From the NCBI RefSeq assembly GCF_002100115.1, contig NZ_ANBM01000002.1:124001-188000 (forward strand): 64,000 bases of DNA, given 5' to 3'. Shown in pieces: positions 59,490 through 62,893 of the stretch. The stretch comes from Anaerovibrio sp. JC8. Its GTDB lineage: Bacteria; Bacillota; Negativicutes; Selenomonadales; Selenomonadaceae. Numbering within the stretch: position 1 is the stretch's first letter; every line of letters begins with the position of its first letter. The notes beneath the pieces are model-generated. The model was not told where the DNA came from, ran no database searches, and was given only the letters and a program-made list of their open reading frames with translations. The position numbers and the translations under genes are program-made.

Positions 59490-59582
59490 TTGGTTGCCGA
59501 ATTATACCTTTTTAATATGGTAAAGTTTTATACTTACCCACTTATCCCCAATTTTTAATATGCATGAGTTGTATATACAATA

Positions 59583-59611
59583 AGAAGGTGGTCTGTTACT
59601 GACCACCTTCT
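59583..59611 (+). terminator. Terminator after deoB
   Basis: GAAGGTGGTC and GACCACCTTC with a 7-base loop, then TTTCATTTT. Confidence 0.85.
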
Positions 59612-59676
59612 TTCATTTTCTGTATATTTATGCATTTTACTCACATATCCACATATAACCTTGTGGATAAGGTAAA

Positions 59677-59725
59677 CCACAACATATAGTGTTGAAGTTT
59701 GACACTAAATACTATATATAGTAAA
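59677..59725 (+). promoter_or_regulatory. Tandem NrdR boxes in the nrdD promoter
   Basis: Box 1 CCACAACATATAGTGT at 59677-59692 and box 2 around TACTATATATAGTA at 59710-59723. Their centres are 31 bp apart, three helical turns, as known for NrdR. Box 2 covers the spacer of the core promoter. NrdR represses RNR genes according to ATP/dATP level. Confidence 0.6.
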
Positions 59726-59727
59726 AT
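59699..59727 (+). promoter_or_regulatory. nrdD core promoter
   Basis: TTGACA (-35), 17-bp spacer, TAAAAT (-10). Confidence 0.75.
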
Positions 59728-59764: not shown

Positions 59765-62041
59765 ATGGCAAGTAATATACAGAATATACGAAAACGCAAT
59801 GGGGACATTGTCCCATTTATTCCACAGAAGATAACGGATGCTATCCGCAAGGCCAATATGGAATCCATTGATGATACCTTTTCAGCCAAGGAGCTGGAGC
59901 GTCTTACCAATGAAGTAACAGAGGCCATTTCCGTCAAGGATATTCCTTCCGTGGAATTTATCCAGGACGCCGTGGAAAAGGTGCTTATAAGCAATAACTT
60001 TGCCAGCACCGCCAAGGCCTACATTATCTATCGGGCAGAGCACACCAAGATTCGTGAGGCTCAGGGGAACCTGATGGATATCTACAACGAGCTTACCTTT
60101 AAGAAATCAGCCGACGCAGATATTAAGCGGGAGAATGCCAATATCGATGCGGACACGGCTATGGGAACCATGCTGAAATATGGTTCCGAGGGGTCAAAGT
60201 ACTACATTGATAATTATATCCTGCCGAAGGATATTGCCGCTGCCCACATTGACGGCGACATTCATATCCACGACAAGGACTTCTATATGCTGACCGAGAC
60301 CTGCTGTCAGATTGACCTCATTAAGTTATTCAAGGATGGTTTTTCCACCGGTCACGGTTATCTGCGTGAGCCAAACGGCATCCGCTCCTATGCAGCTCTG
60401 GGCTGTATTGCCATTCAGGCCAATCAAAATGAAATGCACGGTGGACAGTCCATTCCAAACTTTGATTATGCCATGGCACCGGGTGTGGCCAAGACCTTTG
60501 CCAAGGAGTATTTCCGGGCATTGAGTGCCTTTTTTATTGCTGTTCTCAGCATGAATGCCAATGATGCCAAGCTGCTGGCCAAGGAAATCCAGCGTTGTAT
60601 CCCTATGGATATTCGTCTGGGAAACACCGATGAATACATGCACCGTCTGGTGGACTTCCTGCCAAACCATCAGCAGAGCCACAATTATCAGGCCATTTCA
60701 CCAAATCAGACAGAGCGTGCCCACAATTACGCTGTGGCTACTGCGGTGGATGCCACTGAGGATGCCACCTATCAGGCTATGGAGGCATTTATCCATAACC
60801 TTAATACAATGAATTCCCGTGCCGGTGCCCAGGTGCCATTCAGCTCCATCAATTATGGAACTGATACCTCTCCTGAGGCCCGCATGGTTATCCGCAACCT
60901 GCTGAAGGCCACTACTGCCGGCCTTGGAAACGGCGAGACACCAATCTTCCCGGTTCAGATTTTCAAGGTTAAGGAAGGAATCAACTACAACAAGCATGAT
61001 CCTAACTTTGATTTGTTCCAGCAGGCTATACGCACCTCCGCCAAGAGGCTGTTCCCTAATTTCAGCTTCCTGGATGCACCGTTTAATCTCCAATTCTACA
61101 AGGAAGGGGATTACGACACCGAGGTGGCCTACATGGGCTGCCGTACCAGGGTTATGGGCAATGTTCACGACAAGAACCGCCAGGTAACCTGCGGCCGCGG
61201 CAATCTCAGCTTTACCAGTATTAACCTGCCTCGTCTGGCCCTCAAGGCCAAGGGCAATAAAAAGATATTCTTCAATGAGCTGGACAGCATCATTGAGCTG
61301 GTATTCCGCCAGCTGCTGCACCGCTTCAAGATTCAGTGCAGCAAGACCGTCCGCAACTATCCGTTCCTTATGGGACAGGGTGTATGGATTGACAGTGAAA
61401 AGCTGAAAATCGATGACAGCGTGGCCGAGGTTCTGAAGCACGGTACCCTGTCCATGGGCTTTATCGGCCTGGCCGAAACCCTTATTGCCCTCATGGGCAA
61501 GCATCACGGTGAATCCGATGAGGCTCAGCAGCTGGGTCTGGAAATCGTGGGACACATGCGCAAGCGCATGGATGAAAAATCCCAGCAGACCGGCCTGAAC
61601 TTCACCCTGCTGGCCACTCCTGCAGAGGGCCTCAGTGGACGCTTTGTCCGCCTGGACCGCAAGGAATACGGTGAAATCCCTGGAGTTACTGACAAGGATT
61701 ATTACACCAACAGCTTCCACGTACCGGTTTATCACAAGATAGCCGCCGCAAAGAAGCTGGAGCTGGAGGGACCATACCACGCCCTGACCAATGCGGGTCA
61801 TATCAGCTACGTGGAAATGGATGGGGACCCTTCCAAGAATTTGAAGGCCTTTGAAGCCATTGTGCGCTGCATGCACGATAATGGCATCGGCTACGGTTCC
61901 GTAAACCACCCTGTGGACCGGGACCCTGTATGCGGCTACAACGGTATTATTTATGACGTATGCCCACAGTGCGGCCGCAGCGAGGCTGCCCACAAGAAAC
62001 GCCGTATTGTACGCCGTCCACCGCAGTTTTGCAATGATTGA
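59765..62041 (+). CDS. nrdD: Anaerobic ribonucleotide reductase large chain lacking the glycyl-radical loop
   Basis: Class III RNR catalytic chain. Residues about 4-95 are an ATP-cone (IRKRNGDIVPFIPQKITDAI), followed by the NrdD barrel (DGDIHIHDKDFYMLTETCCQ, NEMHGGQSIPNFDYAM, TCGRGNLSFTSINLPRL). The chain ends with DPVCGYNG, CPQCGR and RRPPQFCND, where known NrdD chains continue into the radical loop RRxxGYL. Here that loop is missing from this protein. Two in-frame stops (TGA 62039-62041, TAG 62054-62056) separate it from the next gene, which supplies the loop. NrdR-controlled promoter upstream. Confidence 0.9.
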   Translation: MASNIQNIRKRNGDIVPFIPQKITDAIRKANMESIDDTFSAKELERLTNEVTEAISVKDIPSVEFIQDAVEKVLISNNFASTAKAYIIYRAEHTKIREAQGNLMDIYNELTFKKSADADIKRENANIDADTAMGTMLKYGSEGSKYYIDNYILPKDIAAAHIDGDIHIHDKDFYMLTETCCQIDLIKLFKDGFSTGHGYLREPNGIRSYAALGCIAIQANQNEMHGGQSIPNFDYAMAPGVAKTFAKEYFRALSAFFIAVLSMNANDAKLLAKEIQRCIPMDIRLGNTDEYMHRLVDFLPNHQQSHNYQAISPNQTERAHNYAVATAVDATEDATYQAMEAFIHNLNTMNSRAGAQVPFSSINYGTDTSPEARMVIRNLLKATTAGLGNGETPIFPVQIFKVKEGINYNKHDPNFDLFQQAIRTSAKRLFPNFSFLDAPFNLQFYKEGDYDTEVAYMGCRTRVMGNVHDKNRQVTCGRGNLSFTSINLPRLALKAKGNKKIFFNELDSIIELVFRQLLHRFKIQCSKTVRNYPFLMGQGVWIDSEKLKIDDSVAEVLKHGTLSMGFIGLAETLIALMGKHHGESDEAQQLGLEIVGHMRKRMDEKSQQTGLNFTLLATPAEGLSGRFVRLDRKEYGEIPGVTDKDYYTNSFHVPVYHKIAAAKKLELEGPYHALTNAGHISYVEMDGDPSKNLKAFEAIVRCMHDNGIGYGSVNHPVDRDPVCGYNGIIYDVCPQCGRSEAAHKKRRIVRRPPQFCND

Positions 62042-62068
62042 ACAAAATTAATTTAGGTGAATTTATAT

Positions 62069-62374
62069 ATGAAAGGAAAGTGCAAAAAAATGGTAGTAAA
62101 TGGAATTGATGTAACCGTAAAGGGACTGAATGATGTCAGCGAGCAGGAAATCATGAGCTACATCGACATGCTGGAGGAGGAAAACGATGAGGATCTCAGC
62201 AGCCTCACCATTTCCCCGGCAGAGGATGGCTCCGTGGCCCTGGATTACGTGTTACAGCCAGCCAAGTTCGAGCGTATCCGTCGCATCACTGGTTATCTGG
62301 TGGGCACTATTGACCGCTGGAACAACGCCAAGCGTTCCGAGGAGCATGACCGCGTAAAGCATGGCCTTAATTAA
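62069..62374 (+). CDS. Free-standing glycyl-radical subunit of anaerobic RNR
   Basis: About 101 residues. The C-terminal 35 contain FERIRRITGYLVGTIDRW and AKRSEEHDRVKH, which match the radical-bearing loop of NrdD, with the Gly in GYL as the expected radical site. The first 60 residues (VTVKGLNDVSEQEIMSYIDM, then an acidic stretch) may dock onto the large chain. Same reading frame as nrdD but behind two stops, with its own AGGTGA site 8 bases before the ATG. GTG 62057 and ATG 62090 are alternative starts. It overlaps nrdG. Confidence 0.83.
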   Translation: MKGKCKKMVVNGIDVTVKGLNDVSEQEIMSYIDMLEEENDEDLSSLTISPAEDGSVALDYVLQPAKFERIRRITGYLVGTIDRWNNAKRSEEHDRVKHGLN

Positions 62375-62858
62375 GCTAGCGGGTACGGTCAATGATTCAG
62401 TTGTAGACGGTGAAGGTTACCGTTTTACCATCTTCACCCAGGGTTGCCCCCATAACTGCATTGGCTGCCACAATCCCCAGACCCATGATTTTGACGGAGG
62501 TCATGAGGAAGATACTGATGATATACTGGGGACTATTCTGGATAATCCGTTGCTGCAGGGTGTCACCTTCAGTGGTGGCGAGCCCTTCTGCCAGCCGGTG
62601 CCATTGACTGATTTGGCACGAAAGATTCATCAGCATGGCCTGGATGTGTGGTGCTATACCGGCTACACCATAGAACAGCTCTTAAGGGGAACCCAACAGC
62701 AGGTGGAGCTGCTGAAGGAGCTGGATGTTCTGGTGGACGGCCCCTATCAGGAATGGAAGCGGGATATATCCCTCAGCTTCCGGGGCAGCAGTAATCAGCG
62801 GGTTATTGATGTACAGGAAACACTGAAAAGAAACGAAGTCGTTTTATATGAGGTGTAA
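62361..62858 (+). CDS. nrdG: Anaerobic RNR activating enzyme (radical SAM)
   Basis: Radical-SAM activase that abstracts a hydrogen from the RNR glycine. Seen: FTQGCPHNCIGCHNP (CxxxCxxC for the 4Fe-4S cluster), GEGYRFTIF, VTFSGGEPFCQ, and WCYTGYTIEQL. 165 residues, normal for NrdG. Overlaps the glycyl-radical gene by 14 bp, so the two are probably translated together and physically interact. The target glycine is on the separate small protein. Confidence 0.94.
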   Translation: MALIKLAGTVNDSVVDGEGYRFTIFTQGCPHNCIGCHNPQTHDFDGGHEEDTDDILGTILDNPLLQGVTFSGGEPFCQPVPLTDLARKIHQHGLDVWCYTGYTIEQLLRGTQQQVELLKELDVLVDGPYQEWKRDISLSFRGSSNQRVIDVQETLKRNEVVLYEV

Positions 62859-62871
62859 TGACGTATGTTAC

Positions 62872-62893
62872 GGGGAGATTTTCTCCCCTTTTT
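62872..62893 (+). terminator. Terminator of the RNR operon
   Basis: GGGGA and TCCCC hairpin followed by TTTTT. Confidence 0.75.

Follow-up and report, generated by a model that had tools for sequence, protein, structure and literature searches.

A very probable two-subunit class III ribonucleotide reductase in Anaerovibrio and its family, with the radical glycine loop on a separate small protein

Class III ribonucleotide reductase (RNR) is described, in passages of PMC9531940, PMC9669993, PMC12662201, PMC4390871 and PMC3019208, as carrying its glycyl radical within the NrdD chain. We have analysed a stretch of 64,000 nucleotides from Anaerovibrio sp. JC8 (contig NZ_ANBM01000002.1, positions 124,001 to 188,000; the whole stretch is referred to here as the window) in which an operon on the forward strand, at 59765-62858, encodes an NrdD, a small protein and the activase NrdG in that order. 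The operon resembles the canonical systems of Prevotella copri (8p23), phage T4 (1h78) and Streptococcus thermophilus (9d3x) in its ATP-cone, barrel, finger-loop cysteine, CPxC site and loop sequence and in having nrdG next to it; it differs from them in that the radical loop lies on a second polypeptide, together with a 59-residue domain that is not present in NrdD. Judged from sequence comparison, these genes very probably specify a two-subunit class III RNR, made up of a large chain without a radical loop and a 94-residue radical subunit.

Separate radical loops have been described for pyruvate formate-lyase. GrcA/YfiD of E. coli and Y06I of phage T4 are free small proteins with a glycyl-radical loop, one of them phage-borne, and are thought to replace the C-terminal end lost at the glycine; according to passages of Andorfer et al. 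2021 (PMC8683613) they are the only two spare parts validated, both for pyruvate formate-lyase, others being possible. The small protein of the window is likewise free and has an intact radical loop, but whereas the loop of GrcA/YfiD belongs to PF01228, the protein described here matches PF13597 only; moreover, its loop would be needed by a large chain that has none of its own, which goes beyond repair. A catalytic chain in two polypeptides is also found in the class II RNR NrdJa/NrdJb (passages of PMC9669993; also PMC4520616), but that enzyme is B12-dependent and its second chain consists of reductant-handling C-terminal domains with no storage radical. Phage nrdD genes with introns or inteins are likewise in more than one coding piece (PMC3653736, in the part concerned), but there the pieces are spliced or result from breakage, whereas here each piece is a conserved protein, often at its own locus. 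No description of a two-piece class III RNR, or of a spare part for one, was found in the open-access literature, subscription papers being mostly uncovered. A passage of Burnim et al. 2022 states that RNR sequences below 400 residues were dropped (PMC9531940), and the small chain of a two-piece RNR would go unseen because such analyses drop short sequences.

The NrdD of the window ends in CPQCGRSEAAHKKRRIVRRPPQFCND, and in a profile search its match to PF13597 spans positions 1-540 of 562 only. The chain belongs by profile to both the ATP-cone and the 10-stranded NRDD barrel families (scores in Table 1), and its fold aligns to 8p2s with a Z of 31.5 over 521 residues. Profile positions 533-562, with the radical-glycine loop, sit in the next open reading frame (ORF), which scores 30.8 bits (cut-off 26.2) and also matches PRK14704 at 583-617 of 618; with the PF13597 profile no other radical glycine loop was found in the loopless NrdD. 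With 1-540 on the large chain and 533-562 on the small protein, the two add up to a single whole NrdD profile, divided immediately ahead of the radical glycine. These results bear out a preliminary description of the window, which had noted a 758-residue NrdD with ATP-cone, barrel and Cys site but no loop, the loop on the following small ORF, where a glycyl-radical profile should find it, and then nrdG. The small protein, put there at about 100 residues with some 60 extra, is indeed separate, but its size is to be corrected to 94 residues with 59 added: the start conserved among relatives is the ATG at 62090, with AAAGGAAAG just 5' of it, and the GTG at 62057, which would give 105 residues, is not the conserved one.

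The finger-loop cysteine, in the motif MGCR(T/S), which from the alignment with T4 NrdD we take to be the thiyl-radical cysteine, is kept in all 58 loopless and all 29 loop-bearing chains counted, a count that omits six divergent loci. The source genome has a second loopless NrdD (NrdD2), also of 758 residues, which lies outside the window, some 65 kb upstream, with no small gene or nrdG beside it. Both paralogues carry a new short tail with a pattern like Phi-x-Phi-x-Arg, found in large chains of either kind, whose arginine (Arg751) is invariant across 25 aligned rows; a docking tail common to the two would be consistent with this, which by itself shows nothing.

In the small protein the radical loop makes up the last 35 residues; it is complete, and Gly68 is invariant in 47 aligned small proteins. 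The first 59 residues gave no Pfam or NCBIfam family at E up to 1. A profile search of PDB sequences with the small-protein alignment (A3) returned NrdD loops and chance matches only, and PHROGs holds no family of its own for the protein, the matches being the end of phrog_487 and weak ones. When the small protein was modelled by itself with AlphaFold2, its N-terminal part formed a strand, a helix and two strands, with a predicted local distance difference test score (pLDDT) of 82-90 for the block. Over 11 pairs of Anaerovibrio-type loci, the ratio of non-synonymous to synonymous substitution rates (dN/dS) of the N-terminal part is 0 to 0.28 and the dN of the loop is at most 0.025; the N-terminal part is under purifying selection. 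At one other locus (L114, G218:C650, 1603-2880) a small-protein module including the loop lies within a 425-residue protein that adjoins a cytosine-methylase-like gene.

The arrangement is not confined to this operon: nearly all sampled Selenomonadaceae have a split enzyme. Many of the genomes used in this work are drafts or metagenome-assembled genomes (MAGs); the family sample comprised 61 genomes at least 98% complete and was searched with PF13597. A loopless large NrdD, ending at about 531-541 of 562, is present in 58 of them, and 57 of these 58 carry the loop on a short separate ORF. The exceptions to the loopless state are G238 and G239, which have a loop-bearing NrdD, and G277, where NrdD runs into the contig end. 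PF02867, the profile used for other RNRs, is unmatched in 46 of the 61 genomes, and 44 have neither a PF02867 match nor a loop-bearing NrdD; all 44, including the source genome (completeness 99.99%), carry the small gene. Because no other RNR was detected in these 44 genomes, the two-piece enzyme must work in them, unless they make no deoxynucleotides de novo or possess an RNR that PF02867 missed. In another Anaerovibrio (G105:C45:103269-104923) a class I/II RNR match falls in two frames, of 271 and 471 residues, and that gene is perhaps broken or interrupted.

The small gene is also not tied to a neighbouring nrdD. Many loci of Selenomonas and Mitsuokella pair the small gene with nrdG and have no NrdD in the roughly 5 kb to each side, and a chain of the NrdD2 kind is often the only NrdD of a genome in the sample. 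The source genome has one small gene and one NrdG above the TIGR02491 cut-off beside its two loopless NrdDs, and therefore one radical subunit probably serves two catalytic chains; from the gene content, we regard sharing of the small subunit by NrdD1 and NrdD2 as likely. Identical matches (L111, L112) came from a Selenomonas MAG and a 'Mailhella' MAG, both of water-deer samples; their source is probably a mis-binned or mobile contig.

The same division is found in other Negativicutes. A search with the small protein matched 261 of the 380 class genomes, ordinary NrdD loops included. Among 25 class genomes picked for earlier search matches or as contrast, free loop ORFs of about 94-114 residues occur beside both loop-bearing and loopless NrdDs, with N-terminal parts that share a layout and show weak sequence similarity (alignment A3). 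In an evenly drawn sample of 55 genomes of the class the free small gene accompanies every loopless NrdD (16 of 16 genomes), as against 18 of the 39 others, with 21 of the 39 lacking it (Fisher p 7e-5, kinship uncorrected). In a phylum sample of 90 genomes, NrdD ends at 531-540 in six (G000, G243, G445, G383, G429, G458) and a free loop ORF is present in all six, being below the family cut-off in G383 and G429 and a 49-residue frame in G458; in the other 72 phylum genomes with a match above the cut-off, a free loop ORF was found in three (G412, below the cut-off, G428 and G489). In G458 (L251, G458:C2) a divergent loopless NrdD is followed by a radical S-adenosylmethionine (radical-SAM) gene and then by the 49-residue frame, which contains SRVVGYLSPVSDWNKGK; this is perhaps an independent split of another branch of NrdD.

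The break and the loop can be compared between relatives. In the five genomes compared (G014, G032, G088, G288, G318) the small protein has a loop of the type RRITGYLS...FNDAK, as do loop-bearing relatives of the loopless chain concerned, and within Selenomonadaceae the loops of the small protein and of loop-bearing relatives are both of the type FERIRRITGYLVGT. Outside the family, many a loopless chain finishes with what appears to be the beginning of the loop (VRRVKKA, VRKIRRIARP), and the NrdD of G445 stops inside it, at FERIHRITE followed by a stop, one residue before the glycine, with the small gene unlinked (L253, L252). Oxygen is reported, in passages of PMC3019208 and PMC8683613, to cut glycyl radical enzymes at the glycine; since the NrdDs break at or just before this residue, they break at the same place as the reported oxygen cut. 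A tree of 64 NrdD cores requires 15 loop changes, at least eight of them on well supported branches; it is a quick tree with support from the Shimodaira-Hasegawa-like approximate likelihood ratio test (SH-aLRT) only and with long-branch warnings, and the share of losses among the changes is not given by it.

In the mechanism we propose, NrdG would make the glycyl radical on Gly68 of the small protein, either alone or in complex; the loaded loop would then enter the barrel of the large chain and the radical would pass to the finger-loop cysteine, oxidising it to a thiyl radical. The N-terminal domain of the small protein and the tail of the large chain probably hold the two chains together, and in the source genome both large chains probably draw on the same small protein and the same NrdG. 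Efficient activation of YfiD is reported to require binding to its damaged partner (in a passage of PMC8683613); if this rule holds here, the large chain would gate activation. As to history, a free radical part may first have replaced NrdD cut by oxygen at the glycine, as GrcA/YfiD does for pyruvate formate-lyase; because a truncated NrdD with its part is equivalent to a cut enzyme with its spare, truncations could be fixed repeatedly. By analogy, such a spare-part origin is somewhat favoured. The small protein is best read as a radical part for class III RNR, similar to GrcA, which has become obligatory.

The small gene is also found in phages. The viral sample consisted of the best 80 of 241 relatives and favours free copies because the query was small proteins: a fused NrdD is present in ten of the 80 loci, and in the other 70 the small gene is free, accompanied by a loopless NrdD in ten and by no NrdD of the same locus in 60. 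In the whole records of 44 free-small-gene loci, six also have a loopless NrdD and 38 a loop match only, the records possibly being fragments. All but one of the 70 free phage copies retain the radical glycine. In Anaerovibrio slackiae (L117) the small gene follows holin and amidase genes on a contig of 55,741 bases that is listed as viral, and another copy (L119) lies near ParA-like and terminase genes. It is quite possible, if somewhat less likely than not, that the small protein is a mobile radical subunit, charged by NrdG, serving several chains per cell and carried alone by phages to restore or re-route host (or oxygen-damaged) NrdD, which made the chain's own loop dispensable so that its loss was fixed repeatedly.

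Several observations weigh against a two-subunit enzyme. Modelled by itself with AlphaFold2, the small protein has a loop pLDDT of only 51-57, and Foldseek with this model gave no match at E up to 0.001 in the PDB and viral structures. Modelling, which the preliminary description had suggested, did not bring the parts together: with the two window ORFs as one chain the loop is not in the barrel, mean pLDDT being 71 and falling to 28-36 in the last 40 residues, a weak test since the alignment was shallow (25 rows, six covering the small part). With VIA-align only residues to about 744 of this model aligned to NrdD structures, the loop being outside the aligned part; the tail forms a strand at 745-750, next to the small domain, which is of low confidence and is not counted as evidence. 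In one genome, G164, a loopless and a loop-bearing NrdD are present and the small gene exists only in interrupted form. Relatives of the small protein that lack the glycine and end in FERIRRIS or FERIRRV occur in G238 (L177/L243), G239 (L178), G224 (L176/L244) and G137 (L170), with an IscR-like gene beside them in the stretches read; G238, G239 and G224 have a loop-bearing NrdD and G137 also has an ordinary small gene, and from these sequences the N-terminal domain may have another use. One viral copy (L269) has arginine at the position of the radical glycine (ITRYLVG), as if it were a decoy or decayed. Finally, 'no other RNR' here means no PF02867 match and no loop-bearing NrdD, and PF02867 may miss monomeric class II enzymes.

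Two loci deserve separate description. In G164 (L171, G164:C135) the small gene is broken exactly between the radical glycine and the next tyrosine by an insert of about 0.75 kb with an HNH_3 endonuclease; Rfam gave no intron family in L171, and a second half-loop lies at G164:C58. In G277 (L345) an N-terminal match similar to that of the glycine-less relatives stands beside an IscR-like gene.

Other explanations were weighed against the two-subunit enzyme. The small protein could be only a spare that repairs oxygen-cut NrdD, the loopless NrdD working otherwise or with another radical source. The free small gene in 18 of the 39 class genomes without a loopless NrdD is as expected of a repair part, and GrcA/YfiD is such a part for pyruvate formate-lyase (passages of PMC8683613). 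However, in all three samples the loopless NrdD is accompanied by the small gene (57 of 58, 16 of 16 and 6 of 6 genomes), and the 44 genomes with neither a loop-bearing NrdD nor a PF02867 match would offer a pure repair part no enzyme to mend; this explanation is improbable.

It is marginally less probable still that the small protein acts chiefly to regulate or inhibit NrdD or NrdG, with the loop borrowed as a recognition element. Glycine-less relatives of the N-terminal domain next to an IscR-like gene, and phages that carry the small gene alone, would agree with such a role, but it would not account for the invariance of the loop and glycine in 47 small proteins, the glycine in 69 of the 70 free phage copies, or a loopless NrdD with no other radical glycine loop. 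A degenerate NrdD was also considered and is ruled out, the catalytic residues being kept, the genes conserved and no other RNR found in 44 genomes.

That a sequencing error, stop-codon read-through or programmed frameshift joins both ORFs into one ordinary NrdD can be dismissed as extremely improbable: the two ORFs of the window are in the same frame with only two stops between them (TGA 62039-62041 and TAG 62054-62056, both present as first described), but over 24 distinct loci with NrdD and the small gene adjacent the relative frames are random (7:9:8) and the spacers differ (stop-to-ATG gap 12-91 nt), in many relatives the small gene adjoins no NrdD, NrdD2 is some 65 kb from the small gene, and in loop-bearing NrdDs the loop begins within about ten residues after CPxCG and therefore the 59-residue domain cannot be an insert within one joined chain. 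That the two ORFs of the window share a frame is chance, and the split is no error. The two-subunit enzyme has in this way come through the genomic tests, namely the invariant glycine, the random frame, the co-occurrence and the absence of another detected RNR in 44 of 61 genomes.

The features of the operon are collected in Table 1. Promoter-like sites of the kind upstream of nrdD number 10 against 5.0 expected in the scan, so that the site at 59699-59727 is weak evidence for a promoter. The first 14 bases of nrdG are also the last 14 of the small gene, and no terminator-like stems between the three genes were listed in the scan. Further upstream of nrdD, at 59582-59612, a strong 12-bp inverted repeat with a T-run is probably the terminator of the preceding gene.

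Table 1. Features of the nrdD - small gene - nrdG operon (positions in the window)
Feature	Position	Strand	Evidence
Promoter-like site TTGACA-17-TAAAAT, upstream of nrdD	59699..59727	+	consensus scan, 11/12 positions
nrdD, catalytic chain without radical loop, 758 aa	59765..62041	+	PF03477 67.1 bits, PF13597 632.9 bits
Parts of nrdD: ATP-cone, barrel, finger-loop Cys (MGCRTR), CPQC, new short tail RRIVRRPPQFCND			
Putative free glycyl-radical subunit, 94 aa: 59-residue N-terminal domain, then FERIRRITGYLVGTIDRWNNAKRSEEHDRVKH with radical Gly68	62090..62374	+	PF13597 533-562
nrdG, radical-SAM activase	62361..62858	+	TIGR02491 155.4 bits (cut-off 126.1)
Terminator-like stem 3' of nrdG, stem GGGGAGATTTTCTCCCC then T-run	62872..62888	+	

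The small proteins described here are named candidates for spare parts of RNR, so that the question of whether such parts exist is directly testable, and a separate small chain could ease the study of radical transfer. They would also suggest a way for a repair part to turn into an obligatory subunit, and would represent a new type of phage gene that affects the supply of deoxynucleoside triphosphates. For the Selenomonadaceae, it seems that an essential enzyme of a whole bacterial family holds its storage radical on a separate, exchangeable protein.

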